64,000 nucleotides of DNA. Origin: Isoetes taiwanensis (Eukaryota; Streptophyta; Lycopodiopsida; Isoetales; Isoetaceae). Both the position numbers and the translations under genes were made by a program. The stretch covers positions 21,727,726 to 21,791,725 of the forward strand of contig JAJEKV010000002.1 of assembly GCA_021234155.1 (NCBI GenBank), in the 5' to 3' direction. A model generated the notes under the pieces. That model was not told the DNA's origin, searched no databases, and saw only the letters and a program-made list of their open reading frames with translations. Shown piece by piece: positions 2,962 through 29,040 of this stretch (position 1 is the first letter of the stretch; every line of letters starts with the position of its first letter).

Positions 2962-3630
2962 CTGATAAAACAACTGTTTTAGAGAAATTACTTGGTAAAC
3001 TACTGGCAAAAAATTGATTTAAAAAGATCACCGATGTCTTAAAAAGCCACGTTTAGTAATAGAACATTAGCTATTGATTGGATAGTGCAAAACTTTGATC
3101 CTTAAGTCAATGGTGGCCAAGGCTCAGGAACCAAGGTATTTGCATGCTCCATCTTCTATTTATAATGTGTGTGCTTCAATGTAGTTTTACGACAATCATC
3201 ATGCAAAAATTCTGATTTTTTAGAAGAATGTGTCTCCTGAAGCTGAGAAGAATTGTTTCTTCTGAAGCACAATCTTAATTCTTGTAGGTAGACCTTTCTA
3301 GCATGCATTAAGGAGGCATTAATAGGGGTAGTTATTCCTTTTTTATTGGTTTTTTTTTTTTTTTTTTGAGGGTAAGAAGTATGATTTTTTATTAATAAAA
3401 AGTGGCCCAAGACCTTATTACAAAGCGGCCCAGAGGCCTTATAGGAAGAAGTAGCACATGGTCACCAGATAGAAAGAATTAACACATATATAACAACACA
3501 GCCACCAAACTAGAGAACCTCAACAAAATGATGCCCCTGTACTCTGTCCAAAGCGCCCTCAACCTCTTCATTATCATAACAAGAGGATAGAGAACCTCCT
3601 CTCCGCCCATCCAGTACTATAGAGCATATT

Positions 3631-3668: not shown

Positions 3669-4304
3669 AATACACTGCTAATTCTTCTTAAAATCATGCC
3701 CCCAGTGGTCTTATTAGCAACGGATGTTTTGAGACCCCCTAGTTGACTCATGTGTTGTTGTATCTTCTTAAAATAAATGGATCCTTGTTAGCCACTGATT
3801 TTCCCTTCTCTAAATTAGATTGATATCTCCATGGCCACTCTTGAATATTCTATCTCATAGTGCTTGCTGAAAATTATACATGAGCTGAGATCTAATTATA
3901 CAGAGTGGGATCCTTTCATAACCATGTAATTATAGCAAAGATGTTGTTGGTATATTGTAAGTCATGGAGTACATGCTGAGGAAAATATAATAGATCTTAA
4001 AGTACTAGTTGGTTTGTTAATTTAGTGCTTTTATAAACTGACCTGATCTGTTTAAAATAGAAAATGTTTCTTTCGTGTAGACCCAGTGGAAAAATTCGTT
4101 TGCTGCAGATAAAATGGCCCTGATCCACTATATGTATAAGCTGACTTCTGATCACTACCTTGCAAAGCATAACCTGAAGAGTGTTTACAGATTATAATTA
4201 TGTTTACAGATTATAATTACAAAGTGTGCTCATAATTATGTTGCACATGAAAGAGTTTGCTTTGTGCCCAGCACTATATGGATAGATGAAAACAGGATTG
4301 AAGA
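3633..4304. other. Intergenic with long T-tract
   Basis: A T-tract of about 29 bases opens this stretch. A 19-bp tandem duplication (TGTTTACAGATTATAATTA twice) lies near 4182-4220. No coding signal is seen. Confidence 0.5.
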
Positions 4305-7300
4305 TGTATATGGTCATTGTATCCTCTATCTTTTTTATCTGCTGTCTAATGTGATAGCTTAGATGGTGAAGGGCGTTAAGCCGGATAGATTTATAGCTTA
4401 CCTGTGATAGCTTAGGCAATTACCCTGTTCAAGGCTAACTTGCTTATGGTTCTATTGCAGGTAACCAAGTCTATCCCTCCATTGCGTATGCTTTGTGGAC
4501 ATAATTTTGGAGATGAACTCAACTATGTGGTGCTTTCTTAACTTTATGCGAAGGCTCAAGGAATATCAGACTTTTTTGCTTTGTTTAACTTACATTTGAA
4601 CACTGTTGACTTTGTTAACTCTCAGATGGAATTTTTTTCTGTTAATTGTCTTTCATAAGAATTTTCAGATACCATGTTATCTAGAAACTTTGATATTCAG
4701 TCTTATTTCCTGCTGTTCTGTATTCACATGACTACTTTGGAATATCCTTTTGAAGACAAAAACGAATTTGTCAAATATCTAGTATGAACATTGTTATCTT
4801 AAGTATTAAATATGCTTGTTTGTCTCGTATTATATTTCAGATTTCTATTTGTTGATAAGTTCAATGTTCTTTGTATCCATGATATAAAATAATGGCAGAT
4901 TGAAAGAAATATCTGTTAGGCGTTTATTGTACTGCTTATTCTTGTATTCTAAAATTCGTCTTGTGGAAGTTAGTCTTTTAAACTGTATTTTTTCAGAAAG
5001 GTCTACTAGTCCATATCTGGGCCTAGATTTAGAGTACACCTATCTTTATCTAGGGCTGCAAGTTGAGGTTCTTATTCTTCCAAACGGATTTATAAGACCT
5101 TGGTCTGTTATTTCTTATGGTCTTGACAGACTTGGGGGTTTTTTATTGTTACTCCAGTTCCCAAGTCTAACTTAGGGACCCCGATATGGATTAAGGTGTT
5201 ATATTTGTTTTATCTCACACATTTATTTACTTGATCTGAGAATAGAGGAAATGATCCTATACAAAGAATAGAGGAAATGATCCTATACAACTTGGAGATG
5301 AAGTGGACTTCAGCAATTATTGGATCAAAGAGCTCATCGTCTTACATTACAATGAGTGCAACATTTCCAGCCCAAATCCTGCTGTACAAACACTAATTGC
5401 CTGTATCAGAAATGTGGAAGTCCATCAGTACATTGTTCACAAAGAAAAGACTCTCATGGAAAAGGATAAGTCACCTGTAAGCTATTTGGGTTTCAATGGT
5501 TGGTTTAAAGCTTTCAATTGCTTGAAAAAATCCAATTTCAAGCTAGAGACATGTAAAGGTATAATTTCTGCCATATACAATGACATGCCTAAGGTGTTGT
5601 ATGATAGAACTTGCTTAGAAGATGAAATGGGTAAAAAATTCATGATCGGCCTTACACATCTAGAAGATATCAATGATATGAAGTCGTCAGTTTTAATGGA
5701 TGAAGAACTGAACGTTGACACGACTGACTACCTACAAAATGAAGTCAAAAATTGTCTCTTCTCAGAAAATGACCTAACTGAAGATGATCTGAAATATATG
5801 GATAAGGGAAATAAGGATAACAACAGTGACAGTTCACAAGGTGGTTCAGAACAAGATGAGGTACCTACTTTGACTTTGCTAAATTCATCTAAATTTCCTA
5901 TAATTCCTGAGCAGAACGTGGAGTGCTATGGGGCTGCCTGGGGACATGCCCTGTGGAAGAGCCAAAACTTCGGGGCTTTGGCGCCAATAAATGTTGACAC
6001 TTGGAAGGCACTTACAGGTATAATTGATGACGAAATCAGAACTGGTATTGCAAAAGCAGGCAGACTTGAGAAGTACTTTCCAAAAAAGGAAGTCAATGTT
6101 CCCTTTGATATTAATTTCTTTGACCAAGAGTGCTCCATGAATACAGGTGTGCATGTGAGCCAGAAGAGTAACATGGCATATTCGGATGACAAAAGAGACG
6201 GATTTTTTCTGAAAAAACTTTGGAGGACACATTGCCCATTTCTCACTTGTGGCTGTGTTAAGATGAAAAAGAATGATAGAGAAAAGAAAAAAGAGGACTG
6301 CGATAGTGGGATTGTGTGGATTGACCATGCAGTTTGGTTTATCCTAAATAACCTTGAGCTCTTGTATCCTGGAGCCACTCCAAATGTCAAGATGGTTTGC
6401 ATCACTAAACTCTTGCATAATATCCTTAAACCAGCTGTTATTGCATACCTCTCTTATCTGGAAGTAAGAAGGATTTTCATTGATATGACACTATTCTATG
6501 CTGAAAACCCTAACAGCAATCTTAGGGCAGTGTTTGGTAACAACAAACTTGCAGAAATTGCCGAATTAACCCTGAGGCCAGTATCTTTCAGGAAGAATCA
6601 GACCCCAAAAAGTAGAATCTCTGGAAGCAGTTGTGGCAGTGGACCAAACAAAAACTGTTCAAATATTCGACCTCCTAGGGTTACAATGGATCCACGTAAT
6701 ACTGAAAATCTGGATAAGGCACAAGTTGCCAAAAATGCAAAAGCCTTGATGGATGGGGAAAATGATGACCAGTACTCTGTTACTAAAGGGGGAAACGCGA
6801 TCATTTCACTGGAGGACAGCATTCCTACCAAACTGGACTACAAAGAAGCAACCGGGTATGTGTCTAATGCCTATGCTTTATTCTAAATTTACTTCGATAC
6901 TTGCAAGTTCTTTTAAATGCTTACTTTCATAATTATTATGATAATAACATTAATTACTGTTCCACCAGCCATGGGTTTTTATGGAAAGAGTTTTTCCATG
7001 GTCGTATGCGTATCACAAAAAAAAAAAACTTTTACTATCTCTATTACCTTTATTACCTTGGGTTTACCAAAGCACAAAATATAGATTAGCCCGGCATGGG
7101 CTACTATATGAGATCAATTCTGTTTACAGATTTGAATTGGTAAACCTTTAGTCCTATCTTGCCCACATTCTAATTTACATCCTTTTTCTTTTTAGGTGGA
7201 ACAAAACAACACAAGGATTATTATAAAGGATTGTAATCACAAAAGACATATGGTGACTGTCAAGGATAATAAGAAAGTTAAGGTTGTCCATAGCACGTTT

Positions 7301-7774
7301 CTCTCAAAATCCTTGGAAAGGTTTAACACGAGAGACATTTTCAAAGAGATATTGCTACAAACTGTGCCCAATGTGGCAAACGAGTTGTTGGATTGCACTT
7401 TATTCGGCTGGAAATATGGAGATCAAATAAAAGATAAGGTTTATAAACCTTTCAACGTATTTGCTAGTGGCAAACCAAAAAAGTGTCCATGCAAGAACCC
7501 TAGTTTGACAAAATTTATTGACCCCACTATTGGCCATATCCGAACCACCGATTTGCAGATCATACATTGTCCTAAGCTTAGGATGGCATTTACCAATGGC
7601 CTGAATCATATCCCGGACAGCGGATTTTCTGTACAAGAGTTCATGGATAACTTCAAAATTACATGTGATCAATTCTTTCAGGTTCACCACTTTCAATTGC
7701 TACACATCAGTAATGATGGCATTATTGCTATTAAGGACAAAATACATGATTTGGCTAAACAAAAAATTGTCTTG
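4305..7774. repeat. Tandem duplication A, copy 1
   Basis: 3470 bp repeated directly at 7775 onward with about 99 percent identity by eye. The unit holds non-coding leader, the Penelope-like N-terminal ORF, the intervening intron-like stretch and the first ~193 codons of the reverse transcriptase. The junction falls inside the RT frame with about 1 bp of microhomology, so copy 1 lacks the catalytic part. Confidence 0.93.
5303..6886 (+). CDS. Penelope-like element N-terminal ORF, unknown function (copy 1)
   Basis: 527 codons open from the first ATG. Frame and similarity extend a little upstream through a duplicated NRGNDPIQ motif; a TACAG acceptor-like site precedes it in copy 2. I do not recognise the protein. 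Visible features: an acidic Asp/Asn/Ser-rich linker at about residues 165-190, a Cys-containing block (HCPFLTCGCVKMKK) near 310, a Lys/Glu-rich run after it, and a Ser/Gly/Pro-rich basic stretch near 435-460. No GIY-YIG endonuclease pattern is seen. It ends 310 bp before the RT frame. The gap has a GTATGT donor-like site and a TTTTTCTTTTTAG acceptor, but the best donor does not keep phase with the RT frame, so one-gene status is unproven. It is the better preserved of the two copies. Confidence 0.75.
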   Translation: MDFSNYWIKELIVLHYNECNISSPNPAVQTLIACIRNVEVHQYIVHKEKTLMEKDKSPVSYLGFNGWFKAFNCLKKSNFKLETCKGIISAIYNDMPKVLYDRTCLEDEMGKKFMIGLTHLEDINDMKSSVLMDEELNVDTTDYLQNEVKNCLFSENDLTEDDLKYMDKGNKDNNSDSSQGGSEQDEVPTLTLLNSSKFPIIPEQNVECYGAAWGHALWKSQNFGALAPINVDTWKALTGIIDDEIRTGIAKAGRLEKYFPKKEVNVPFDINFFDQECSMNTGVHVSQKSNMAYSDDKRDGFFLKKLWRTHCPFLTCGCVKMKKNDREKKKEDCDSGIVWIDHAVWFILNNLELLYPGATPNVKMVCITKLLHNILKPAVIAYLSYLEVRRIFIDMTLFYAENPNSNLRAVFGNNKLAEIAELTLRPVSFRKNQTPKSRISGSSCGSGPNKNCSNIRPPRVTMDPRNTENLDKAQVAKNAKALMDGENDDQYSVTKGGNAIISLEDSIPTKLDYKEATGYVSNAYALF

Positions 7775-7819
7775 TGTATATGGTCATTGTATCCTCTATC
7801 TTTTTTATCTGCTGTCTAA
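7196..7819 (+). pseudogene. Penelope-like reverse transcriptase, 3'-truncated copy
   Basis: The first ~193 codons match the intact RT at 10657 almost perfectly. They include the KKCPCKNP cysteine motif and the GHIRTTDLQII block. The frame then runs into the start of the next duplicated unit at 7775 and stops at 7819. All catalytic motifs are missing, so this copy cannot encode a polymerase. The truncation results from tandem duplication A, not point decay. Confidence 0.9.
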
Positions 7820-10800
7820 TGTGATAGCTTAGATGGTGAAGGGCGTTAAGCCGGATAGATTTATAGCTTACCTGTGATAGCTTAGGCAATTACCCTGTTC
7901 AAGGCTAACTTGCTTATGGTTCTATTGCAGGTAACCAAGTCTATCCCTCCATTGCGTATGCTTTGTGGACATAATTTTGGAGATGAACTCAACTATGTGG
8001 TGCTTTCTTAACTTTATGCGAAGGCTCAAGGAATATCAGACTTTTTTGCTTTGTTTAACTTACATTTGAACACTGTTGACTTTGTTAACTCTCAGATGGA
8101 ATTTTTTTCTGTTAATTGTCTTTCATAAGAATTTTCAGATACCATGTTATCTAGAAACTTTGATATTCAGTCTTATTTCCTGCTGTTCTGTATTCACATG
8201 ACTACTTTGGAATATCCTTTTGAAGACAAAAACGAATTTGTCAAATATCTAGTATGAACATTGTTATCTTAAGTATTAAATATGCTTGTTTGTCTCGTAT
8301 TATATTTCAGATTTCTATTTGTTGATAAGTTCAATGTTCTTTGTATCCATGATATAAAATAATGGCAGATTGAAAGAAATATCTGTTAGGCGTTTATTGT
8401 ACTGCTTATTCTTGTATTCTAAAATTCGTCTTGTGGAAGTTAGTCTTTTAAACTGTATTTTTTCAGAAAGGTCTACTAGTCCATATCTGGGCCTAGATTT
8501 AGAGTACACCTATCTTTATCTAGGGCTGCAAGTTGAGGTTCTTATTCTTCCAAACGGATTTATAAGACCTTGGTCTGTTATTTCTTATGGTCTTGACAAA
8601 CTTGGGGGTTTTTTATTGTTACTCCAGTTCCCAAGTCTAACTTAGGACCCTGATATGGATTAAGGTGTTATATTTGTTTTATCTCACACATTTATTTACT
8701 TGATACAGAATAGAGGAAATGATCCTATACAACAGAATAGAGGAAATGATCCTATACAACTTGGAGATGAAGTGGACTTCAGCAATTATTGGATCAAAGA
8801 GCTCATCGTCTTACATTACAATGAGTGCAACATTTCCAGCCCAAATCCTGCTGTACAAACACTAATTGCCTGTATCAGAAATGTGGAAGTCCATCAGTAC
8901 ATTGTTCACAAAGAAAAGACTCTCATGGAAAAGGATAAGTCACCTGTAAGCTATTTGGGTTTCAATGGTTGGTTTAAAGCTTTCAATTGCTTGAAAAAAT
9001 CCAATTTCAAGCTAGAGACATGTAAAGGTATAATTTCTGCCATATACAATGACATGCCTAAGGTGTTGTATGATAGAACTTGCTTAGAAGATGAAATGGG
9101 TAAAAAATTCATGATCGGCCTTACACATCTAGAAGATATCAATGATATGAAGTCGTCAGTTTTAATGGATGAAGAACTGAACGTTGACACGACTGACTAC
9201 CTACAAAATGAAGTCAAAAATTGTCTCTTCTCAGAAAATGACCTAACTGAAGATGATCTGAAATATATGGATAAGGGAAATAAGGATAACAACAGTGACA
9301 GTTCACAAGGTGGTTCAGAACAAGATGAGGTACCTACTTTGACTTTGCTAAATTCATCTAAATTTCCTATAATTCCTGAGCAGAACGTGGAGTGCTATGG
9401 GGCTGCCTGGGGACATGCCCTGTGGAAGAGCCAAAACTTCGGGGCTTTGGCGCCAATAAATGTTGACACTTGGAAGGCACTTACAGGTATAATTGATGAC
9501 GAAATCAGAACTGGTATTGCAAAAGCAGGCAGACTTGAGAAGTACTTTCCAAAAAGGAAGTCAATGTTCCCTTTGATATTAATTTCTTTGACCAAGAGTG
9601 CTCCATGAATCTGGTGTGCATGTGAGTTTAAGAGTAACATGGCATATTCGGATGACAAAAGAGACGGATTTTTTCAGAAAAAACTTTGGAGGACACATTG
9701 CCCATTTCTCACTTGTGGCTGTGTTAAGATGAAAAAGAATGATAGAGAAAAGAAAAAAGAGGACTGCGATAGTGGGATTGTGTGGATTGACCATGCAGTT
9801 TGGTTTATCCTAAATAACCTTGAGCTCTTGTATCCTGGAGCCACTCCAAATGTCAAGATGGTTTGCATCACTAAACTCTTGCATAATATCCTTAAACCAG
9901 CTGTTATTGCATACCTCTCTTATCTGGAAGTAAGAAGGATTTTCATTGATATGACACTATTCTATGCTGAAAACCCTAACAGCAATCTTAGGGCAGTGTT
10001 TGGTAACAACAAACTTGCAGAAATTGCCGAATTAACCCTGAGGCCAGTATCTTTCAGGAAGAATCAGACCCCAAAAAGTAGAATCTCTGGAAGCAGTTGT
10101 GGCAGTGGACCAAACAAAAACTGTTCAAATATTCGACCTCCTAGGGTTACAATGGATCCACGTAATACTGAAAATCTGGATAAGGCACAAGTTGCCAAAA
10201 ATGCAAAAGCCTTGATGGATGGGGAAAATGATGACCAGTACTCTGTTACTAAAGGGGGAAACGCGATCATTTCACTGGAGGACAGCATTCCTACCAAACT
10301 GGACTACAAAGAAGCAACCGGGTATGTGTCTAATGCCTATGCTTTATTCTAAATTTACTTCGATACTTGCAAGTTCTTTTAAATGCTTACTTTCATAATT
10401 ATTATGATAATAACATTAATTACTGTTCCACCAGCCATGGGTTTTTATGGAAAGAGTTTTTCCATGGCTGTGTGCGTATCACAAAAAAACTTTTACTATC
10501 TCTATTACCTTTATTACCTTGGGTTTACCAAAGCACAAAATATAGATTAGCCCGGCATGGGCTACTATATGAGATCAATTCTGTTTACAGATTTGAATTG
10601 GTAAACCTTTAGTCCTATCTTGCCCACATTCTAATTTACATCCTTTTTCTTTTTAGGTGGAACAAAACAACACAAGGATTATTATAAAGGATTGTAATCA
10701 CAAAAGACATATGGTGACTGTCAAGGATAATAAGAAAGTTAAGGTTGTCCATAGCACGTTTCTCTCAAAATCCTTGGAAAGGTTTAACACGAGAGACATT

Positions 10801-11235
10801 TTCAAAGAGATATTGCTACAAACTGTGCCCAATGTGGCAAACGAGTTGTTGGATTGCACTTTATTCGGCTGGAAATATGGAGATCAAATAAAAGATAAGG
10901 TTTATAAACCTTTCAACGTATTTGCTAGTGGCAAACCAAAAAAGTGTCCATGCAAGAACCCTAGTTTGACAAAATTTATTGACCCCACTATTGGCCATAT
11001 CCGAACCACCGATTTGCAGATCATACATTGTCCTAAGCTTAGGATGGCATTTACCAATGGCCTGAATCATATCCCGGACAGCGGATTTTCTGTACAAGAG
11101 TTCATGGATAACTTCAAAATTACATGTGATCAATTCTTTCAGGTTCACCACTTTCAATTGCTACACATCAGTAATGATGGCATTATTGCTATTAAGGACA
11201 AAATACATGATTTGGCTAAACAAAAAATTGTCTTG
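7775..11235. repeat. Tandem duplication A, copy 2
   Basis: Direct repeat of 4305-7774, continuing without a break into the rest of the RT gene. Differences from copy 1 are few and clustered, for example GACAGACTTGG versus GACAAACTTGG, and small indels near 8640, 8705, 9555 and 9611-9630. Several coincide with CAG or CTG. Confidence 0.93.
8700..10352 (+). pseudogene. Penelope-like N-terminal ORF, copy 2, frameshifted
   Basis: Same protein as the ORF at 5303, broken into a 302-codon and a 237-codon frame. The first break is a one-base loss in an A-run near 9551 (five A where copy 1 has six). More changes at 9611-9630 fall where copy 1 has ACAGG and CCAG. Upstream this copy is open from about 8700 and shows the duplicated NRGNDPIQ motif before the VDFSNYWIKELI start region. 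Homopolymer and CHG-context errors could explain the breaks, so the true gene may be intact and be the partner of the RT at 10657. Confidence 0.75.
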
Positions 11236-12714
11236 TACAAAAAAATGCTAAAACCTAAAAGATACCTCTGGGATGATGGAGATGTCAAGAAAAACTTGAA
11301 TTGGCTTGGCCAAAATTTGTATATTTCAGGTTTGGACAAGGCGACTAATAATGCCTCATTCATTTGTCAAAAACATATCTTTGAGATGGCCTTAAATAGA
11401 CTCAACAGCAATGACTTTGAAAAAATGCCATTAAGTCCATATGAGATCAAAACTGAGTGTGTTGATGGGATAAAAAGTTTATTGAAAATCCCTGAACCAT
11501 GTAGTAACAGGTTACCATATCTGCTTGGCTTATTCAAGGCCCATAAAGGAGAATACCGTTGGATTACGAATGCCCACAATACTGTTTTCTCTGGTGTGGC
11601 AGACTTTCTAACTACGATTCTCAACAATTTCATTGAAGCATGGCCTGATATCTGTAACTGGAATACTGCTGAGATCAGAATGTGGTTAAAAGATAAAGTT
11701 AACCCCTGCTGGATGATCAATTCTACATACGATCTAGTCTTGAACTTTCCCAAGAAAATTAACAATGTATTCTCAGCCGACATAACAAGATGTTATGAAA
11801 ATATACCACTGACTGGTAATGAGGGAATCACTGAGATCATAAATGATGTTGCAGACCTAATGTGGGACTTCATGAGGCACAAAAAACCGCTTACACAGCT
11901 TACAGTCAAGAACAAGATGGGTACTCTTAGCACGAAATGGGAAAAGGTAAATACTGGAATGACTAAAATGAAAACAGTTGTGACAAAGGATGATTTCAAG
12001 ATAATTAATGGATGGTTATTGAGTCATTGCTATTTGCAAATGGGCAATGATATATGGAGACAAAGCAAGGGCATACCTATGGGGTTCTCCTGCAGCCCAG
12101 CATGGTGCAATATGTATTTAGCATGGTATGAACTAAGGTTTATACTTAAACTAGCCCATCTTAATAGGCTGAAAGAGATACCTAGGTTTCAACATGCATC
12201 GAGGTATATTGATGACCTCAACATCATCAATGGGGGAGACCTGAGAGAGTTCTTTGCCAATGGGTCGGCATGCTCCATTTATAATATGGAACACCTCGGA
12301 ATAAAAGATGAGACCACGTACATACAAAATACAACGTTGGGACAAAGAGTTAATTTCCTAAATGTCACTATACAGGTTGACGATCAAAATAATGGCATGT
12401 TCTCATATACCAGATATGATAAAAGAAAAAAGCTTCCTTTCAATATCAACAAATTCATAAAGGCATGTGGCTGCAGACCTTATGGGCAGGCTTGTAAAGT
12501 GATCATTTCACAAGTGTTTCCCTACGTGTATGCCCATTCCAGTCCAGTTACTGCTGCTGAGGATGTTTTAGGCTTGATTTTAGCCTTTTGTAATAATGGA
12601 TTCCAAAAGAAGGACGTCATCAGAATTGTGTTAAAAACTTTGAAGGAAAACAACTTTCCTGGTTTACCTTATGACATTGAGGACTTAACAAGGATTTTGA
12701 AGAAAATAATGTAA
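10657..12714 (+). CDS. Reverse transcriptase, Penelope-like, endonuclease-less
   Basis: 685 codons, intact. The frame opens directly after a polypyrimidine TTTTTAG acceptor with GTG, so the real start may lie in an upstream exon. Motifs in order: KKCPCKNP (Cys97, Cys99); GHIRTTDLQII near 113-123; DKATNNASFICQKH near 227-240; the family's finger motif as PYLLGLFKAHKGEYRWITNA at 287-306; motif A FSADITRCYENIP (Asp375); motif B QSKGIPMGFSCSPAWCNMY near 469-487; motif C SRYIDDLNII (Asp519, Asp520); motif E VNFLNV near 565-570; and a C-terminal thumb-like ACGCRPYGQACKVIISQ. The A motif ending in IP, the FLxV motif and the xYxDDL box fit Penelope-like RTs. The protein ends about 115 residues after motif E with no GIY-YIG domain, so it is endonuclease-deficient. 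Such elements (Athena, Coprina) are known from rotifers, fungi and some plants. All catalytic aspartates are present. Confidence 0.85.
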   Translation: MEQNNTRIIIKDCNHKRHMVTVKDNKKVKVVHSTFLSKSLERFNTRDIFKEILLQTVPNVANELLDCTLFGWKYGDQIKDKVYKPFNVFASGKPKKCPCKNPSLTKFIDPTIGHIRTTDLQIIHCPKLRMAFTNGLNHIPDSGFSVQEFMDNFKITCDQFFQVHHFQLLHISNDGIIAIKDKIHDLAKQKIVLYKKMLKPKRYLWDDGDVKKNLNWLGQNLYISGLDKATNNASFICQKHIFEMALNRLNSNDFEKMPLSPYEIKTECVDGIKSLLKIPEPCSNRLPYLLGLFKAHKGEYRWITNAHNTVFSGVADFLTTILNNFIEAWPDICNWNTAEIRMWLKDKVNPCWMINSTYDLVLNFPKKINNVFSADITRCYENIPLTGNEGITEIINDVADLMWDFMRHKKPLTQLTVKNKMGTLSTKWEKVNTGMTKMKTVVTKDDFKIINGWLLSHCYLQMGNDIWRQSKGIPMGFSCSPAWCNMYLAWYELRFILKLAHLNRLKEIPRFQHASRYIDDLNIINGGDLREFFANGSACSIYNMEHLGIKDETTYIQNTTLGQRVNFLNVTIQVDDQNNGMFSYTRYDKRKKLPFNINKFIKACGCRPYGQACKVIISQVFPYVYAHSSPVTAAEDVLGLILAFCNNGFQKKDVIRIVLKTLKENNFPGLPYDIEDLTRILKKIM

Positions 12715-12745: not shown

Positions 12746-15628
12746 GTGCTAATAATCCTGCATGCAATACCATTCAATATGCTGGAATGCTAGCAAGTCC
12801 ACAAAAGCTGCTGATGCACAGGTGATAGCAGATAGCAATATTCACTCATGCAATCTAGCTTCAAGCAATTTATCAGATCTGAAGACAATGGAGACCTCTG
12901 GTCCAGACCAACATACTCAGGTTTGAGGTCTTGGAAATATGTATTACAACATATCTTTTTACTTTCAATAGACATAGGAAAATGCTTGTATCTTAAACTC
13001 TTGTTCTTATGCATGGAATAAACACCTAGAACAGAACTAGGTCTGCTTATTTCATTGCTTTAAATTTCTCTGATAGGTGGAAGTAACCACATGAATTATG
13101 ATGAATCTGGCTAACTAGGTCCTTTGTTCTTAATGAAAGACTTAAATTCTAGATAGATCTGGATCAAGAAAACGACATTGCCATAGTTTACTATTTGTCA
13201 TATATGGTTAAGGATCCGGTCTAAGCATATCAAATCTGAGGGGATATAGCTTTCCAAAAATACACATAGGTTTGAGTTTTATATTCAGTTCCTATTGCTC
13301 AAACATGAGATTATTCTCTCGTATTTTCTTATTAATAATATAGCAGTTGATTCTAGCCAAATTTAGTGCTAGAAATGCATAGAATCTTGCACAAATGGAT
13401 CTTAGCTACTCTTTAAAACTGCTATGATGTAAAAACGTATGGATATTATCAGACTAATCCTCATCTTCTATTTTTTACGCTTTATCTTTCGTTTTATCAA
13501 GCAGAGTGAAGGGATAACCTAAAAGATCCCATGACACCGCTAGTTGCCATGATTACCCATTAGGCTAATTTTTTGTTGGTTTACTTGCAGTAATGGGATC
13601 TTTTACTCTTTGCATTGATATGTTTATCTATCAATTCATTGGAGCGTCTCTCTTGGAGTTTTACTTGAATATTGGAGGGCTTCCACTTTTCTTTGTTATA
13701 AACTGTGATATTTGGATCTTAAAAATGATTTATTTACTTTCTTTCTACTTGATTTTGGATCTGAAACATTATTGTATCTTTGAAATGCTAAGACATTTGG
13801 AATATATGGTCTTCATCACGTTCAATGGTCTTATTGAAAATGTTTTAAACTTGTCATTTATCGATGCATTTGACTTATGTCTTGTTTGTCTACTTCTTCT
13901 ATCTAATCATGATAACCAAGTCAATATTTAGATGTATATGGCACCTATACTATCTAAGGTCTGCTAATTGGAGACTAATTTCTCAAATGGGATTTTAGTT
14001 CTAAATGTCTTGTTTCAGGACTTAAGGTATTTTTTTTTTTATGTATATATTCTTTTCTAAAGGTATATCCTTAGACTGTGTGACTATAGAATTAGCTATA
14101 TCGCTTCGTAAATATATCTACTCAACTTATCTCCGTTCTGACCAGCTCAAATAACTTGGCATGCAAGGCGTTGGATGTCTAATATTTCCCTATAGTCGTA
14201 GTCAAAGGGGTTAAGCACTTGAGCACATTCTTGTCCTATGTCAAGGTATCAAAATTAATCTGAGTCGTTTATGGTTACTGTCCACTATGACCTCCACTAT
14301 GACCTGATATACTATCTTTCTCATTCTCTTTGGATTTTCTTTCACATATTTCCACTAGTATTTGACCAACTTCATATTTATCCCTAACGCATCTAGGGTG
14401 TCCTTTTTCAAGAAATGATGGATAATTCAATAAGCGACCCATGTTGTTAATTTCCTATATATTTCAGCTAGATGGCATCTAAATTTTTCCGTACAACTTC
14501 AATTTTGTTATGGTTCTAGTGCCTTATAGAGACTTTGTCATTCGAACTCTTGCCTAATCTTTGGCCTATAGCAAAATCCCCACTGTTAATATAAGGTAGA
14601 CTGAGTGAAAATGTTTCAATTAATTTGGGGCCTTGTCATTTTATCCCAAAATGATTTTTCTTTTATTAGCAAGTAAATTTATAAGTTATCACAATCTTAG
14701 AGTTAGGGTTCATTCACGAACTTTTTGTTGATCAAAATGGAAGCCGGCATCTCTATCTCTATCCTACTATTTTCATTTCCTTATCTGGCAGATACATGGC
14801 TCCTTATGGATGCCCGGATTGAAGCTTCTCGGTCTGTGCAGTCCCGAGACTCTATTAGATACAGAGCTTTACTCCACAGTAAAATAGATCACGAGTAAAA
14901 TAGCACCCATCACATTGCACAGTTAACCCATACGGACTGGATATGGAACTGTGGCATTTAGTACACCTGATAAAACAACTGTTTTAGAGAAATTACTTGG
15001 TAAACTACTGGCAAAAAATTGATTTAAAAAGATCACCGATGTCTTAAAAAGCCACGTTTAGTAATAGAACATTAGCTATTGATTGGATAGTGCAAAACTT
15101 TGATCCTTAAGTCAATGGTGGCCAAGGCTCAGGAACCAAGGTATTTGCATGCTCCATCTTCTATTTATAATGTGTGTGCTTCAATGTAGTTTCTGCACAA
15201 TCATCATGCAAAAATTCTGATTTTTTAGAAGAATGTGTCTCCTGAAGCTGAGAAGAATTGTTTCTTCTGAAGCACAATCTTAATTCTTGTAGGTAGACCT
15301 TTCTAGCATGCATTAAGGAGGCATTAATAGGGGTAGTTATTCCTTTTTTATTGGTTTTTTTTTTTTTTGAGGGTAAGAAGTATGATTTTCTATTAATAAA
15401 AAGTGGCCCAAGACCTTATTACAAAGCGGCCCAGAGGCCTTATAGGAAGAAGTAGCACATGGTCACCAGATAGAAAGAATTAACACATATATAACAATAC
15501 AGCCACCAAACTAGAGAACCTCAACAAAATGATGCCCCTGTACTCTGTCCAAAGCGCCCTCAACCTCTTCATTATCATAACAAGAGGATAGAGAACCTCC
15601 TCTCCGCCCATCCAGTACTATAGAGCAT
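12746..15628. repeat. Segment B, copy 1
   Basis: Matches 16410-19292 with spacing 3664 bp. It begins 31 bp after the RT stop. The first 140 bp can be read as an exon-like frame (KSTKAADAQVIADSN, then TMETSGPDQHTQ) ending at a GTTTGA donor-like site; I do not recognise it. The remainder is non-coding and AT-rich. From about 14897 it is the SDR39U1/LINE piece also found at 2892-3632. Confidence 0.9.
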
Positions 15629-15632
15629 ATTC
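15355..15632 (-). mobile_element. LINE/SINE-type 3' relic, second copy
   Basis: Copy of the relic at 3350-3632 carried within segment B, with a T-tract at 15355-15368 and the paired GGCCC blocks. It is followed by a ~33-base T-tract and then unrelated sequence. Confidence 0.6.
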
Positions 15633-15633
15633 C

Positions 15634-15663
<30 letters not shown>

Positions 15664-15667
<4 letters not shown>

Positions 15668-16409
15668 ATTCCATTTTCAATGATGTTCTATAGAAGAAAT
15701 TGTCTATATCTACTCATCAAATATGCTAAGCCATTTTCTGGAATGTAAGGTTGAGAAATATATGCCTGTGGTGGTAGGTTATACGGGCCACAAGGTGCTT
15801 TCAATCTGAGGATAAGTTGAGGTACTCAATGCTCATATGTTGGAAATGTTCACAAGTCTGAAAGCTAAGGTTATCAATCTGCACATTTGGTAATGTTCCC
15901 AAGTCTGAAAGCTAAGGGTATCAATCTGCACATCTTAAAGTGCACATCTTAAAGCGGTTGAAACTGATTATTGGGGTCAAAAGTTGCATGCAAACCCCAC
16001 ATGGAACATGTCCTAACAATTAAAAATAAGTTATTATGCTCTATATTTCTAACTTAGGTTTTTCTAAAATCGTGGAGATTGCATTTTAGGGTTTCAAAAC
16101 CTAACGTGGAGCATATATGGAAGAATGCTTGCCGACTGGATGCTAATCCGGTAAGGAACTCCTTTATCCGATCTATTTTTTGCACGATGGGTATGCACAC
16201 CTCTCTTCTGGTCCATCTCATTTGCTTCCACCGGGTTGGAAGGAAGAAGGCACCGATCTATGCAATCTAGATTTATGGACAGAAGAAAGGGGGATTCAAT
16301 GCCTCCACTAAGAAAAAGCTTCAGGAGGAGAAGAGCGTTAATGCTAAGGGCAAGGAGATGTTCTATTTTCATACCGTTGTTCTTCCTGTCAAGAAAGGAA
16401 ATGAAGTAA
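15664..16409 (+). other. Spacer between B copies with an exon-like end
   Basis: Unique 745 bp separating the two B copies. A direct repeat lies at 15845-15960 (fTCTGAAAGCTAAGG-type phrase twice). From about 16271 to 16401 one frame is open and coding-like (GGFNASTKKKLQEEKSVNAK, then GKEMFYFHTVVLPVKKGNE). It meets a GTAAGT donor-like site at 16406, which is also the start of B copy 2. The peptide is Lys/Glu-rich and unrecognised. Confidence 0.4.
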
Positions 16410-19292
16410 GTGCTAATAATCCTGCATGCAATACCATTCAATATGCTGGAATGCTAGCAAGTCCACAAAAGCTGCTGATGCACAGGTGATAGCAGATAGC
16501 AATATTCACTCATGCAATCTAGCTTCAAGCAATTTATCAGATCTGAAGACAATGGAGACCTCTGGTCCAGACCAACATACTCAGGTTTGAGGTCTTGGAA
16601 ATATGTATTACAACATATCTTTTTACTTTCAATAGACATAGGAAAATGCTTGTATCTTAAACTCTTGTTCTTATGCATGGAATAAACACCTAGAACAGAA
16701 CTAGGTCTGCTTATTTCATTGCTTTAAATTTCTCTGATAGGTGGAAGTAACCACATGAATTATGATGAATCTGGCTAACTAGGTCCTTTTGTTCTTAATG
16801 AAAGACTTAAATTCTAGATAGATCTGGATCAAGAAAACGACATTGCCATAGTTTACTATTTGTCATATATGGTTAAGGATCTGGTCTGCATATCAAATCT
16901 GAGGGGATATAGCTTTCCAAAAATACACATAGGCTGTGAGTTTTATATTCAGTTCCTATTGCTCAAACATGAGATTATTCTCTGTATTTTCTTATTAATA
17001 ATATAGCAGTGATTCTAGCCAAATTTAGTGCTAGAAATGCATAGAATCTTGCACAACAGATCTTAGCTACTCTTTAAAACTGCTATGATGTAAAAACGTA
17101 TGGATATTATCAGACTAATCCTCATCTTCTATTTTTCTGCTTTATCTTTCTGTTTATCAAGCAGAGTGAAGGGGATAACCTAAAAGATCCCATGACACCT
17201 GCTAGTGCTGCCATGATTACCCATTAGGCTAATTTTTTGTTGGTTTACTGCAGGTAACAGGATCTTTTACTCTTTGCATTGATATGTTTATCTATCAATT
17301 CATTGGAGCGTCTCTCTTGGAGTTTTACTTCGAATATTGGAGGGGCTTCCACTTTTACTGTTATAAACTGTGATATTTGGATCTTAAAAATGATTTATTT
17401 ACTTTCTTTCTACTTGATTTTGGATCTGAAACATTATTGTATCTTTGAAATGCTAAGACATGCTGGAATATATGGTCTTCATCACGTTCAATGGTCTTAT
17501 ACTGAAAATGTTTTAAACTTGTCATTTATCTGATGCATTTGACTTATGTCTTGCTGTCTACTTCTTCTATCTAATCATGATAACCAAGTCAATATTTAGA
17601 TGTATATGGCACCTATACTATCTAAGGCTGCTAATTGGAGACTAATTTCTCAAATGGGATTTTAGTTCTAAATGTCTTGTTTCAGGACTTAAGGTATTTT
17701 TTTTTATGTATATATTCTTTTCTAAAGGTATATCCTTAGACTGTGTGACTATAGAATTAGCTATCTGCTCAGAAATATATCTACTCAACTTATCTCCGTT
17801 CTGACCAGCTCAAATAACTTGGCATGCAAAGCGTTGGATGTCTAATATTTCCCTATAGTCGTAGTCAAAGGGGTTAAGCACTTGAGCACATTCTTGTCCT
17901 ATGTCAAGGTATCAAAATTAATCTGAGTCGTTTATGGTTACTGTCCACTATGACCTCCAGTATGACCTGATATACCATCTTTCTCATTCTCTTTGGATTT
18001 TCTTTCACATATTTCCACTAGTATTTGACCAACTTCATATTTATCCCGAACGCATCTAGGGTGTCCTTTTTCAAGAAATGATGAATAACTCAATAAGCGA
18101 CCCATGTTATTAATTTCCTATATATTTCAGCTAGATGGCATCTAAATTTTTCCGTACAACTTCAATTTTGTTATGGTTCTAGTGCCTTATAGAGACTTTG
18201 TCATTCGAACTCTTGCCTAATCTTTGGCCTATAGCAAAATCCCCACTGTTAATATAAGGTAGACTGAGTGAAAATATTTCAATTAATTTGGGGCCTTGTC
18301 ATTTTATCCCAAAACGATTTTTCTTTTATTAGCAAGTAAATTTATAAGTTATCACAATCTTAGGGTTAGGGTTCATTCACGAACTTTTTGCTGATCAAAA
18401 TGGAAGCCGGCATCTCTATCTCTATCCTGCTATTTTCATTTCCTTATCTGGCAGATACACGGCTCCTTATGGATGACCGGATTGAAGCTTCTCGGTCTGT
18501 GCAGTCCCGAGACTCTATTAGATACAGAGCTTTACTCCACAGTAAAATAGATCACGAGTAAAATAGCACCCATCACATTGCACAGTTAACCCATACGGAC
18601 TGGATATGGAACTGTGGCATTTAGTACACCTGATAAAACAACTGTTTTAGAGAAATTACTTGGTAAACTACTGGCAAAAAATTGATTTAAAAAGATCACC
18701 GATGTCTTAAAAAGCCACGTTTAGTAATAGAACATTAGCTATTGATTGGATAGTGCAAAACTTTGATCCTTAAGTCAATGGTGGCCAAGGCTCAGGAACC
18801 AAGGTATTTGCATGCTCCATCTTCTATTTATAATGTGTGTGCTTCAATGTAGTTTCTGCACAATCATCATGCAAAAATTCTGATTTTTTAGAAGAATGTG
18901 TCTCCTGAAGCTGAGAAGAATTGTTTCTTCTGAAGCACAATCTTAATTCTTGTAGGTAGACCTTTCTAGCATGCATTAAGGAGGCATTAATAGGGGTAGT
19001 TATTCCTTTTTTATTGGTTTTTTTTTTTTTTTGAGGGTAAGAAGTATGATTTTCTATTAATAAAAAGTGGCCCAAGACCTTATTACAAAGCGGCCCAGAG
19101 GCCTTATAGGAAGAAGTAGCACATGGTCACCAGATAGAAAGAATTAACACATATATAACAATACAGCCACCAAACTAGAGAACCTCAACAAAATGATGCC
19201 CCTGTACTCTGTCCAAAGCGCCCTCAACCTCTTCATTATCATAACAAGAGGATAGAGAACCTCCTCTCCGCCCATCCAGTACTATAGAGCAT
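16410..19292. repeat. Segment B, copy 2
   Basis: Second copy of 12746-15628. Differences are strongly clustered at CTG/CAG, for example TTTCTGCTTT here against TTTACGCTTT, and CACCTGCTAGTGCTGCC against CACCGCTAGTTGCC. It ends at a T-tract (19293-19318) that directly abuts unit C. Confidence 0.9.
19018..19292 (-). mobile_element. LINE/SINE-type 3' relic, third copy
   Basis: Same relic as 3350-3632 and 15355-15632, with a T-tract at 19018-19032. Confidence 0.6.
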
Positions 19293-21066
19293 TTTTTTTT
19301 TTTTTTTTTTTTTTTTTTGTATGCATGTTGCTTGAGGACCTCCCTTAAAAAGAGTTAACTGGAGGCTTTCCCGTGAGTTACATTAATTGTGCTTTAATTT
19401 CTTAAACTTTTATGATGCATGCCGAATTTTTTTTACTCAATTGGGGGTAGAATGACCTTAAAACTACTTGTATTATTTCCCTAGATGTTTCTAAATGTAT
19501 CCCTAAAGTGTGGACTCATGTATTGATGATGAGTTCAAATATTCCTAGATTGAGGTTAATTTTGACTTGTTTAAGTCCATGGTCCTTATGAGGACATAAC
19601 CAATAGGCTGAGTGCATTACAGAACATTGGAGTTCTCTAATTGCACCATACCTACTCTATTTTGATCTATAAAATGGCCTTGAAAAACCATCAAACATTC
19701 CTTTAGGTTTGTATTTACCTTTGAGTTATGTTTTCAAGCGATAACTTAACTCTGAATTATACCACATTGAGTTGTATTTATAGCAGGGGGCTGCTTTAGT
19801 CTGGCATGCACCTGAATATTCTCTGCTCTGCCCGAGCTAATACCAAATCAATAAAGTCATAAGGGAATGCTTTCCTTGCTATTAAATTAAATTATTTCTG
19901 AACTTGTATTTATCATTTATCATTCAAGATGAGGAATGAATGAAATCGGCATCCGGAAGGTCAGTAGCATCGTGCAAGGCTATGCCCAATGCACCCTTGC
20001 AAATCATTATATTCCTTAAGAGTTTGCCTTAGAATTTTCTGAGCTCTGAGCTCTGCTAGCACGGATTATGGAGTAGATGTTCTTGAGGACGAATTCTCTC
20101 TTTCTGAAGTGTATAAGCTGAAGTGTATAAGCTGAACTGGTATGAGGCACATGCGGCACAGCTGGATAGAGTAATCACATTATGTATGCAAGGAATTGTT
20201 TTGAAAGATTGCATATGGAAACCTAGGGCAAATAATGCAAGTGGTGGCCCGGTGATCGACATTAATATCATATTCTTCCATTAAGCAAAGCTATGGAAAA
20301 CGTCCCGATTAGGTTCGTGGTCCGAGATGGAAGACATCTTTTGATCTGGCACTGGCACTGTGGTTAACCAGGTATGGCATTATATTTTTCCAAAATAGCT
20401 AAGAAAATTCGTTATTAGCAGTGCAAGAATACAGATGTTAGTCATGGCATGCAATCATGACTTAATCTGAACTTAAAGATCTGAGAAGGGAATGTTTTCT
20501 AGTTCGTTAAATGCCTAAAACAGGTTTGTTTTTAGGTGGTTATCCATTAATTGATTTAAGGGTCTGGCTCTTATGACTTCTACTTAGATTTGGATTGATC
20601 GTATGAAGTAGTTGGTTATGGCCGTTGTTGTTGAAACCAGTTTAAGCATGCATTCGCACTTCCCCATTTGTAATGGAAAGATACTATTTATGTCTTCTGA
20701 GGTACTTGCCTTAGTGTCCCAAGTATTAAGACAAAGATTGTAATCTCAGGCTTTAAGTGCCGTTTAAAATATAGGTGGCCTTTAAAATATTAGAACAGTG
20801 ATACTTAAAATGAGTATTTGCATTCTGCTCACTGATATTTCTGTAATTAGAGGTTCTTCTCTCTCAATGTTTTAAACTAGCTTGTTAATTTTTTCCTGTT
20901 CTCATTTAATCTTTTGGGCAAAAGGTTTACATTAGGTGATCGGTTGACAACCGAGAAGCCTAAGGTACCTTTTGGCCCTTGCATCTTTACCCTTATCAGA
21001 CTAATGATGTATTGATTGGCTGCAGGTACGGGCTTCTCTTCTTAATGTATTCCTTTTGTCCAATAG

Positions 21067-21150
21067 GTTTTAGATGAGCTGCAGACTTGGCATCAGAAGA
21101 TGACTATCTCTGGAAGGACTGAAGGCGTTAAAGTGTCTACAAATACATGA
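21067..21150 (+). other. Exon-like island in unit C, unidentified
   Basis: After a CCAATAG acceptor-like site, 27 codons read VLDELQTWHQKMTISGRTEG then VKVSTNT and a stop. It is unchanged in all copies that cover it. The family is not recognised. It could be the last exon of a captured gene. Confidence 0.3.
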
Positions 21151-22652
21151 ATTTGACTACCCATGTTGGAAATTGTTGCTTTATGTTTGCACCTTTAAAA
21201 CGATGCTAAGGTACTCGGTAATCTTTTCGTTTTACAAAGGATTAAAACTTGATCTTGGTCATTTACTTTCTAGTTAATTTGGTAATGGGATCTCACATAA
21301 ACCATTACTGTTTTGAATGCCTATTAGGCTTTGTACCTAAGGTCTTTATCTTGCTGGCCAGGGTTGACTACAGGGTTGACTACATGCTGGATGATTGTAT
21401 TTCTTACATGATTATATTGAATATTATAGCTGGTTTCTTGAACAAAAGCTCTCATTATTGTATATGCTACATTCTGACATAAATATACTGCTATAAAGTT
21501 TTTGAAAAAGTCACACATGGCCATTATTGATGGATGTTGAAAAGTTTTACTATGCTTATGTAACTTGGTGAAGCAGTTTTCTAGGGCTGATTCTTCTAGG
21601 GCTAATGGTCTTACCATTTCTATAGGACATCAAGGACCATAATCCTATTGGCACTATTTGAGGTTGTATTTTGGTATGATGGAATTATGATTACTGGTTG
21701 AAAACTGTTTTCCCTGGATTTATGGTACCATCTTGGACCGAAAGGTTCATGTATGGCCAGATAAGACAGCGGAGGGATTGACCGATGCTGATGTTTGCGC
21801 TAGGTTTAACTAGTTCAAGCCGGTTTTTTTCATGACACTTCTGTGCATTGGTCTTATCAGTGCTGCCATATTTCCTTGGTTAAGGTTAATTTTACAAGTT
21901 AATGCTTATGTAGTTTGATTGTAAACTATGGCTTAGATATCTTCGGATTCATCTTCATTAAGCTTTGCTTTTTTAATTTCTCATACTTCCGAGATATGTT
22001 TTCAGGCATTTTTATAAATCAAGAGGAGACCGAGTTCAAAATAGTAATTCTAACTTGGAACTCAGAACTTGAGTGCTCGGATTTTGATCAAGAGGAGATG
22101 GGTAATGAGCAGCTAAGCTGAAAGGGACTGTTTTCACAGTTTGCTATTTTGCACCAAATTTTAGTATTGGTGGTTTTGAGAAAATTCAAATACTCAAAAT
22201 ATGTTATTTGGCACCCTACTTGGAATCCAGAACTAGTGAGCTGATGTTTTTGATATCAATACATTTCAGTTATTCAAGTTGAAGTGACATGTTTGACATG
22301 TTATACGATATTATCATTCCATGATTTGGTATATTAATGCAGGAAGATTTTGTGAATCTAGATGAGCCAGAGTTCAATAATTATTCCTATTTGGAATGCA
22401 ACTTGTGAGCTGTGAGATGGGAATTCTTCATTTATGCTTTGAAAAGATAGTGTACTAATCCAAAAAATTCTAAGGTATAATAATCGGTATTATACTTACA
22501 ATATACTGCTGTTGTAAGTTGTGCATGTGCATTTTATGCCACTTGGCCTAGCATATATGGACTGTGGTCCAATACTGCCACTCGGCTTGACATGCCACTC
22601 GGCTGTATTATTATTTTCTATGATTACCAAAGATATTACCAACTTGTTCCAG

Positions 22653-22769
22653 GAATTTATGGGCAGATGGTTTTGACGGATGGAAATTAAAAAAGAGACA
22701 ACTTAAATATGCTGGGGAGATTGACTTCCCATGCATCAAGTGCTCTCAACATCTACTTCTGAATTTGAG
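22653..22769 (+). other. Exon-like island in unit C, unidentified CxxC peptide
   Basis: A TTGTTCCAG acceptor opens a 117-bp block whose only open frame reads NLWADGFDGWKLKKRQLK then YAGEIDFPCIKCSQHLLLNL, and a GAG|GTAACA donor closes it. The CIKC pair and basic WKLKK run look protein-like. The copies at 26.33 and 33.2 kb differ by one synonymous-looking or conservative change. The function is unknown. Confidence 0.35.
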
Positions 22770-22992
22770 GTAACATTACTTTCAATCTTAGTCTCTATTA
22801 CAAGAAATAAACGAGAATTTCTTATGCTATTTGATCATATCTTTTGCATTCTATTATTTTTCAAGTATTGGCAAACAGTTCTCATAAGGTGAGGCATGAT
22901 TCCTGCATTTGTAGGGGTCTGCCGTCCCTATGAAAACTGTGTTGCAGGAAGAATATTGGCCTCTCCTTACGGTAGGAGGTAGGGTTTTTTTT

Positions 22993-25900: not shown

Positions 25901-26672
25901 TGGAATCCAGAACTAGTGAGCTGATGTTTTTGATATCAATACATTTCAGTTATTCAAGTTGAAGTGACATGTTTGACATGTTATACGATATTATCATTCC
26001 ATGATTTGGTATATTAATGCAGGAAGATTTTGTGAATCTAGATGAGCCAGAGTTCAATAATTATTCCTATTTGGAATGCAACTTGTGATTTGTGAGATGG
26101 GAATTCTTCATTTATGCTTTGTGCAGCATAGTGTACTAATCCAAAAATTCTAAGGTATAATAATCGGTATTATACTTACAATATACTGCTGTTGTAAGTT
26201 GTGCATGTGCATTTTATGCCACTTGGCCTAGCATATATGGACTGTGGTCCAATACTGCCACTCGGCTTGACATGCCACTCGTCTGTATTATTATTTTCTA
26301 TGATTACCAAAGATATTACCAACTTGTTCCAGGAATTTATGGGCAGATGGTTTTGACGGATGGAAATTAAAAAAGAGACAACTTAAATATGTTGGGGAGA
26401 TTGACTTCCCATGCATCAAGTGCTCTCAACATCTACTTCTGAATTTGAGGTAACATTACTTTCAATCTTAGTCTCTATTACAAGAAATAAACGAGAATTT
26501 CTTATGCTATTTGATCATATCTTTTGCATTCTATTATTTTTCAAGTATTGGCAAACAGTTCTCATAAGGTGAGGCATGATTCCTGCATTTGTAGGGGTCT
26601 GCCGTCCCTATGAAAACTGTGTTGCAGGAAGAATATTGGCCTCTCCTTACGGTAGGAGGTAGGGTTTTTTTT
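22993..26672. repeat. Unit C, copy 2
   Basis: Full copy, 3680 bp, joined to copies 1 and 3 through GGGTTTTTTTTGTATGCATG. Differences from copy 1 concentrate at CAG/CTG-containing sites, such as 23915-23995 and 24500-24530. Confidence 0.92.
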
Positions 26673-28590: not shown

Positions 28591-29040
28591 CAATCAACAC
28601 ATAACTATCATTAACATTAATTAATACAAACCATTGCATCCAACACATTTAAAATAAAATCCCCCTGAAACCCCCTTTGGTTTGGGTGCATATTCACACG
28701 GGGGGTGACTCCGGGCATCGAGAGCTGTTGGATAGGCATATTCACCCCTTATTCCTTAATCTACACCGTACACAAAGTTCCTCATTTGTGGGGTATGGAT
28801 GTATAGGATTTGGTATACTGTATAACAAAATTTGTAAAATACTATAAGATTTGAGGTAATGTACTATATGGTATTGATTTTGTACGTGCAAAACATGATT
28901 TTAGGGGCTCTCGCCCCCCACGTCACCCCCCGTGTGAATATGCACCCAAACCAAAAGGGGTTTTGTGGGGATTTTATTTTAAATGTGTTGGATGCAATGG
29001 TTTGTATTAATTAATGTTAATGATAGTTATGTGTTGATTG
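28591..29040. mobile_element. Fold-back MITE with ~125-bp terminal inverted repeats
   Basis: The left end CAATCAACACATAACTATCA and the right end TGATAGTTATGTGTTGATTG are reverse complements. Pairing continues for about 125 bp on each side with a few mismatches, leaving an AT-rich middle of about 200 bp. There is no ORF. No matching target duplication is visible at the two edges, so superfamily assignment is open. It forms the left edge of the 3.2-kb insertion in unit C copy 3. Confidence 0.9.

Follow-up and report, generated by a model that had tools for sequence, protein, structure and literature searches.

The 64,000-nucleotide stretch of the Isoetes taiwanensis genome analysed here (contig JAJEKV010000002.1, positions 21,727,726 to 21,791,725; the window) carries on its forward strand an uninterrupted frame of 685 amino acids (open reading frame, ORF, 10657-12714, coding 10657-12711) for a reverse transcriptase (RT) that resembles those of Penelope-like elements (PLEs). 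We regard the locus as probably, if by no means certainly, a copy, itself incomplete, from an Isoetes PLE family that is endonuclease (EN)-deficient and inserts into T-tracts by target-primed reverse transcription (TPRT). The initial annotation had described the frame as an intact PLE-type RT with its motifs and catalytic aspartates, an N-terminal CxC plus GHIxTxDL block and no EN, and most of that description stands. Pfam RVT_1 matches the window RT at E = 1.4e-4, under the curated cut-off, and is found in 11 of 11 aligned RT relatives (alignment A2; best E 2.5e-6). Across the 11 sequences of A2 the motif-A aspartate D375 and the YIDD aspartates D519 and D520 are invariant, as are, in the N-terminal block, the CPC pair C97/C99 together with H114, R116 and T117 (11/11). 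The same alignment contains FKAHK, DKAxNN and YIDD, which we take to be PLE-like motifs, and it is on these motifs that the tentative assignment of the window RT as PLE-type rests; the CxC ahead of the RT presumably links the family to the Naiad/Chlamys clade. No nuclease model matches the window RT or its 11 aligned relatives, sequence searches of the PDB returned nothing credible, and a search of viral contigs found no relatives.

The word intact applies to the reading frame and not to the element. In 12 of 12 copies read the RT frame starts straight after an acceptor TAG|G in phase 0, and the pyrimidine tract with its TAG (10640-10656, +), a predicted 3' splice acceptor, is likewise present in all 12. 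Because the ORF opens at this predicted acceptor and has no start codon at its beginning, we take it as a 3' exon, the last of the element, which reaches well past 10657-12714. The anatomy comes from 12 loci fetched around copies of the RT, at 11 places in the genome, 7 of which were extended. ORF1 (about 520 amino acids, broken in some copies, mean column identity 63%) lies upstream of the RT in 12 of the 12 loci fetched, and what had been taken for a lone RT ORF is instead the final exon of a multicopy element that carries ORF1 and is flanked by pseudo-long terminal repeats (pLTRs). In the window, the ORF1 of the RT-bearing unit (8772-10349, +) has a broken frame (ORFs 8700-9608 and 9639-10352), and an open ORF1 of 527 amino acids (5303-6886, +) lies in an upstream duplicated copy. 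ORF1 has no Pfam, NCBIfam, PHROGs or credible PDB relative, and no nuclease model matches it.

The ORF1 exon and the RT exon appear from the sequence to be separated by an intron (10322-10656, +; GTATGT donor, phase 2). The ORF1 exon is itself preceded by an AG in phase 0, a predicted acceptor, in 10 of 11 copies, the window copy being ambiguous; this acceptor is pyrimidine-rich in 8 and less so in copies C1049a and C143, and copy C468 has an additional phase-1 AG. Eight copies with an open frame have a phase-2 GT donor at the end of this exon (in the window copy, phase 2 by hand), the ORF1 stop precedes the donor in C1045a and C468, and no aligned donor was seen in C143 and C1025. Since the ORF1 donor is in phase 2 and the RT acceptor in phase 0, joining the two would be out of frame, and a direct ORF1-RT fusion by splicing was rejected. 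Near the beginning of the pLTR, all 11 places outside the window also hold a third conserved exon, a predicted leader (MGRKKGG-N-KAT...EKRRKIFDYHKPAK). In 9 of the 11 the leader frame runs on to (C/A)AG|GT at phase 0, in C1078a and C1051a it stops before the donor, and the donors, chosen after the fact, are weak and mostly of a GTT-type that is not classical. One leader could be spliced to either ORF1 or the RT, and the splice phases suggest leader-ORF1 and leader-RT proteins. Splice-like sites are predicted at consistent phases in genomic copies, and introns retained in genomic copies are reported for PLEs (PMC3846280).

The family is large. In the genome (1,658,258,908 bases in 1110 contigs), the window RT as query had 4843 first-look candidates, of which 65 places were scored: the window copy and 64 more that are 54-72% identical to it. 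Of these 65, 52 are stop-free (counted by hand). A distant member as second query gave 65 scored places of 4777 candidates, 46 of them stop-free, and the two queries combined define at least 119 distinct genomic places. This genome-wide count, proposed by the initial annotation, is far beyond chance, and the statement that EN-deficient PLEs are rare does not hold for the Isoetes genome. In 19 pairs (two copies against the rest of 11) the RT has a nonsynonymous difference (pN) of 0.13-0.31 against a synonymous difference (pS) of 0.76-0.89; synonymous sites are saturated while the protein is kept, and the RT is under constraint.

In C1045a, C1018d, C143, C1078a, C1051a and C1049a the coding part stands between direct repeats that measure about 2-3.3 kb and are 95-99% identical, and a repeat pair is present over the fetched part of C468 (98%) and C1025 (85%); none was found in the stretch fetched for C996 and C1018b. 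These repeats are pseudo-LTRs in PLE terms, and together with the tandem units they give the family the pLTR arrangement of PLEs. Copies occur singly or head-to-tail and in what look like stepped sizes: a pLTR alone (C1018_28.3 and C1088, judging by their matches), a single unit, some three units (the window, allowing for a 3.2-kb insertion), and at least four units of 6.5 kb in C936, a head-to-tail array that continues past the stretch.

Two conserved RNAs are predicted in the noncoding part. R1, a folded RNA in the pLTR (4346-4512 and a second copy at 7816-7982, +), has 24 pairs in 11 sequences. Of the cells, 96.6% are paired, against 31-45% in slid controls, and both sides have changed in 13 of the pairs, a level reached by 0 of 500 shuffles; the window R1 has a folding z of -3.5. 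R2, a multibranch RNA over the junction of the pLTR and the 5' untranslated region (5008-5192 and a second copy at 8478-8661, +), has 54 pairs in 9 sequences, with 93.9% paired, against 27-52% in slid controls, and both-sided changes in 32 pairs, again matched by 0 of 500 shuffles. Both structures were counted on the same sequences used to derive them, and the shuffles keep relatedness; the R2 fold came from RNAalifold on the same alignment, so its counts lean to that structure, and a four-pair helix (GGG plus the first U of the tract) was left out of them. The models find places that were not used to build them, with R2 at C468 (3.6e-33) and C1025 (7e-17) and R1 at C996 (2e-28), and R1 is absent from five loci with GIY-YIG matches (L022-L026). 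Within R2 a U6 tract (5139-5144, +) lies largely unpaired in the junction, at the position of the 3' end of inserted relatives. In C1045a the order is leader (1572-1922), R1 (3311-3475), R2 (4295-4468) and ORF1 exon (from 4504), and because R1, R2 and the U6 tract lie between the leader and ORF1 exons, they would be retained in unspliced RNA alone. An alternative start within R1 (M-V-L-L-Q at CAG|GTAAC), which suits some copies, misfits C1045a, C143, C1025 and C1049a on reading by hand and was dropped in favour of the leader exon.

In the window the first 3.47 kb of the RT-bearing unit is tandemly duplicated: 4305-7775 (+), which holds a pLTR end, ORF1 and the first ~200 RT codons, is 99.3% identical to 7775-11236. 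At 12746 an array of 3.66-kb units takes the place of the right pLTR, and with this replacement and the partial duplication of the unit the window copy has an open RT exon in an incomplete element. This first array (12746-19291, +) consists of ~3.66-kb units without ORF1 or RT and has R1 at 13486 and 17146 and weak R2 at 13913 and 17586, the weak R2 site having T9-T11. It also contains a leader-exon-like stretch (16275-16405, +; a 50-nt 74% match to a relative's leader, E 0.002), whose initiator codon is out of frame and which ends GAA|GTAAGT. At its right end a T27 (19292-19318, +) forms the left end of a second array (19319-36049, +) of 3.67-kb units, again without ORF1 or RT, which has R1 at 20912, 24596, 28242 and 35138 and very weak R2 at 21714 and 32260, and which ends on the right at T13 (36050-36062, +); the matching internal unit site near 21823 is a T7 in weak R2. 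A search of both arrays found neither ORF1 nor RT, and R1 has six matches in them (E 3e-24 to 3.6e-6). Given R1 and T-run ends without ORF1 or RT in 19319-36062, we read both arrays as probable non-autonomous partners of the RT-bearing family; that the 3.67-kb array is an unrelated satellite was dropped after the R1 matches. The flanking arrays would belong to the same system. Near 28600-31807 the second array is interrupted by the 3.2-kb insertion, the first 432 bases of which self-match at 75% in reverse and parts of which match locus L011 at 82-96%. Further to the right, 45161-45649 (-) is an ORF with a sub-threshold UDP-glucosyltransferase match (E = 0.0011).

The recurrence of R1 in the units of the window arrays, and its spacing of 3.5-3.8 kb elsewhere in the genome (best 40 of 488 candidates, seen from R1 spacing alone), would suit R1 as a self-cleaving ribozyme of a new type, cutting tandem transcripts in the manner of the hammerheads of other PLEs and of retrozymes. 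Rfam gave no family and no hammerhead at the gathering score in window 1-40000, and against R1 and R2 no hammerhead at E<=10 and no family that fits; a hammerhead or other known RNA was rejected for both, which leaves room for a new ribozyme in R1. We nonetheless think a ribozyme unlikely. Inserted ends fall at U-tracts and not at R1, and R1 joins CTTACCTG with CAGGTAAC, a helix of which one part is presumably a U1-like complement, as in a splice donor. The pairing thus resembles a sequestered splice donor, which makes a splicing role as likely as a ribozyme.

The canonical EN-bearing PLE has a GIY-YIG domain in its ORF and a hammerhead in its pLTR, and this family has neither: no GIY-YIG was found in the coding ORFs of the element (RT, ORF1). 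A genome search gave 121 GIY-YIG matches among the best 150 of 263 candidates; none of these comes closer than 58 kb to the 65 RT places from the first query, or closer than 121 kb to the 65 from the second, and the five GIY-YIG places L022-L026, with ~7 kb around each, hold no such RT. A GIY-YIG partner was rejected on this account, and the reported absence of the domain on either side of the RT was upheld in the coding ORFs and in the genomic neighbourhoods. In 2 of the 5 GIY-YIG places fetched, short GIY-YIG ORFs lie downstream of helicase-like ORFs, which by eye we take to be Pif1/Helitron-like, and not beside a PLE RT (L022 2224-2481 and 3467-3820; L026, in reverse-complement coordinates, 939-1748 and 3165-3596).

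EN-deficient PLEs are associated with telomeres in rotifers (PMC3846280) and EN-lacking PLEs are listed for Selaginella, Pinus and Picea (table in PMC9033089), which would favour an element of the Athena/Coprina mode that became interstitial only by rearrangement. The evidence from the genome makes this very improbable. The host has TTTAGGG arrays (217 matches, control 0) and a TERT gene. Among the first 100 of the 217 array matches, the nearest array to any of the 119 RT places is 98 kb away, and 35 of the 119 places share a contig with one of these arrays. The junctions of RT-family copies are T-runs and not TTTAGGG, and no telomere-capped copy was seen in the stretches fetched. The family thus shares with Athena and Coprina the lack of an EN and, within the matches listed, not the attachment to telomeric repeats; telomere association is not supported, and the initial remark that no telomeric array is visible at the element extends, as far as seen, to the family. 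In C996, C1018 and C1025, TTTAGGG arrays lie deep inside large scaffolds (for example C1018:22828819 and 35025381) and are either interstitial telomeric repeats or scaffold joins. The host TERT exons occur twice in tandem within 10 kb (L051 720-2878 and 8451-9845), the second set being partly degenerate.

What most copies have in common at their outer borders is a T-run. Left outer ends lie on T13-T40 in 15 of 16 cases, two of which (C1050, C1083) share almost the same flanks and so cannot count as independent, the sixteenth being the 5'-truncated C1049a, off a T-run; right outer ends lie at T8-T39 in 15 of 18, those of C1078a, C1063 and C1067 being off T-runs. This count leaves out the right-hand windows of C1086, C1100_9.073 and C1048, which are internal borders, and the right end of C936. 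As a background, 0.2% of window positions beyond 36100 are in or next to a T-run of at least 9, and the same borders inside elements carry T5-T8. C1049a bears TTTTTTTTAATTAAAATATAAACGT on both sides, T8 plus 17 bp, a target duplication; since the element itself ends in T6, the duplication is sure for 17 bp and has a maximum of 25 bp. It is the one case (17-25 bp) of the 5' truncation with target duplication expected of PLEs. The T-run ends and the duplication fit TPRT in which an oligo(dA) 3' end would pair with oligo(U) of the RNA. The initial annotation had reasoned that a mobile element here must prime in some way other than at telomeres, and the insertion-site analysis that it proposed agrees, with interstitial T-run ends and not telomeric junctions in the copies examined. 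The left flanks of C936, C1018_28.3, C1048 and C1078a resemble, by eye, the 3' ends of other subfamilies, and together with the second window array, which starts on its neighbour's T27, they indicate that end-to-end stacking recurs. The insertions at C1100, C1088, C1050 and C1083 adjoin a similar AT-rich repeat with CGAAGGTTTCGC-like palindromes (L034, L035, L036, L040, L042; by eye).

Long T-runs at most ends would also be left by opportunistic, EN-independent insertion, in which the RT extends free A-rich 3' ends at breaks or nicks in fragile T/A tracts and no dedicated cutter takes part. That no nuclease model matches the RT, ORF1 or the six small pLTR ORFs scanned, and that no GIY-YIG match lies near the RT places, speaks for such a process. 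The exact duplication of T8 plus 17 bp in C1049a, however, is a mark of staggered cutting, and ORF1, conserved as it is (63% mean column identity), could be the cutter, so that we hold opportunistic insertion to be possible but doubtful. The duplication argues for a staggered cutter, which could be ORF1, the leader or a host enzyme.

A second conserved border element is the G-box, GGNNGGNGGNNGG, which is followed by T5 or more within 3 nt in 19 of 22 G-boxes in 275.8 kb. In 10 of 12 places the distance from the RT to the G-box with its T-run is 106-185 nt, and in the window they mark internal unit borders of the second array (22971-22983, also 26651 and 33518, +). With its four G-pairs the G-box may bring cDNA synthesis to a halt, or it may serve as a kind of polypurine tract. 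The latter would accord with an LTR-type cycle, in which the repeats are true LTRs, the G-box supplies a polypurine-tract-like primer for the second strand and an integrase, from the host or in ORF1, inserts the double-stranded DNA; the near-identical ~2-3.3 kb repeats on both sides, the G-rich box directly before the 3' repeat in 10 of 12 places and the sharply defined left end can all be read in this way. However, the RNase H and integrase of LTR retrotransposons have no match in the RT, ORF1 or the six small pLTR ORFs, and no fixed-length duplication was seen at full copies, whereas head-to-tail arrays, 5' truncation with target duplication and a U6 end within a folded RNA are present. We therefore consider an LTR-type cycle quite improbable.

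The anatomy and multicopy state of the family, the constraint on its RT, the pLTRs and tandem units, the covarying RNAs, the T-run ends with one duplication and the R1-bearing arrays without ORFs, all read from genomic sequence, suggest the following cycle of TPRT into T-tracts. Spliced mRNAs, joining the leader to ORF1 or to the RT, would make the proteins, and the template would be the unspliced RNA, as the sole form that keeps R1, R2 and U6. The RT would be loaded on R2, and the oligo(dA) 3' end of the target would pair with U6 inside R2 and then be extended. Synthesis would start internally, copying the pLTR, the RT, ORF1 and the next pLTR, and would stop or switch at the U-run just past the conserved G-box; the oligo(dA) copy of that U-run could anneal to the T-tract of the target, which would close the left end. 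Where synthesis ran past the stop, head-to-tail arrays would result, and new copies could land on the T-run that ends older ones. PLEs and the telomerase RT share a common ancestor, and we tentatively entertain a telomerase-RNA-like device, in which the U6 in R2 would be the template, the TERT-related RT would extend oligo-dA ends, and the pair would act in trans on ORF-less units. If this is true, T-tracts are to this RT what telomeric ends are to telomerase.

Besides the weak leader donors, the ends off T-runs and the reuse of sequences in the RNA counts, several observations weigh against TPRT into T-tracts or leave the PLE-type assignment tentative. NCBIfam matches the RT only to the group II intron RT, sub-threshold (E 2.5e-7, 30 bits vs cut-off 300), a match to the RT domain that carries no clade information, and the profile match between the RT and the host TERT is weak (41 columns at a probability of 16%; other part 0.1%). 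The single-sequence structure prediction of ORF1 is unusable (pLDDT 32). R2 is weak in the window arrays, with E values of 3e-5 and 5e-5 for the first array and of 0.002 and 0.008 for the other, and the unrelated locus L022 scores E 0.006; with its values so near, R2 in the second array rests on position, the array ending exactly at the T7. The window borders at 2892, 4305/7775 and 12746 are off T-runs, and we read them as rearrangements. The bases just before the T-run vary between copies, even between the two pLTRs of C1045a, and the T-runs could arise during insertion rather than pre-exist. There is one target duplication only, and none was found in five further fragments checked, 3 of which end in T-runs. 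No G-box follows the RT of C996, where T25 and other DNA stand instead, and it is lost after the window RT, where the pLTR has been replaced. If the proposed cycle holds, the family shows a possible route by which EN-less PLEs could move away from telomeres. It brings together many open RT frames, a fixed putative initiation tract in a covarying RNA, a target to match it, partners without ORFs and predicted splice sites by which message and template would be kept apart, and internal initiation and a telomerase-RNA-like role become directly testable in a plant system.

Among known PLEs, the Naiad/Chlamys elements have a CxC domain before the RT, pLTRs, a simple-repeat bias, no canonical hammerhead and an N-terminal GIY-YIG, and Craig and colleagues reportedly described in 2021 both the CxC motif and an insertion bias towards microsatellites. 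The Isoetes family shares the CxC before the RT (C97 and C99, 11/11) but differs in that no GIY-YIG was found in its RT or ORF1. Some EN-deficient PLEs carry extra ORFs, and Coprina is associated with telomeres. Athena of bdelloid rotifers and the EN-deficient PLEs of fungi and protists have a PLE RT without an EN (PMC3846280), as in Isoetes; Athena is telomere-associated, whereas the Isoetes family is interstitial as far as seen, with mostly T-run ends. The EN-lacking PLEs of Selaginella and the conifers, as given in the table listing of PMC9033089, are alike in having a land-plant PLE RT without GIY-YIG, and EN-deficient plant PLEs are therefore a kind already known. The new part is the non-telomeric T-tract mode with the RNAs R1 and R2; among titles and abstract starts of open-licence PMC papers we found no report of T-tract insertion, R1/R2-like RNAs or such arrays in an EN-deficient PLE.

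The ORF-less arrays recall the retrozymes of plants and animals, which are also non-autonomous units with a conserved RNA; in contrast, R1 and R2 match no hammerhead model, the Isoetes units measure ~3.7 kb, and one Isoetes array shares its ends with an RT-bearing element. The closest functional comparison is with PAc, the Poseidon element of Anolis, whose purified protein begins reverse transcription at an internal site of the RNA close to the pLTR-ORF junction, requires the ORF start, prefers AT-rich DNA and uses unprocessed RNA (PMC11167929). The two are alike in their pLTRs and tandem units, and the unprocessed template, internal initiation and AT-rich targets that were measured in PAc (PMC11167929) are those that we infer in Isoetes. 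PAc has a GIY-YIG EN and a hammerhead, neither of which was found in the Isoetes family, and its initiation site is an AC-rich stem-loop that is not homologous to the target, unlike the Isoetes U6, a difference that counts against the cycle proposed here (PMC11167929). By this analogy, the Isoetes family looks like the PAc plan with a U-tract that matches the target.

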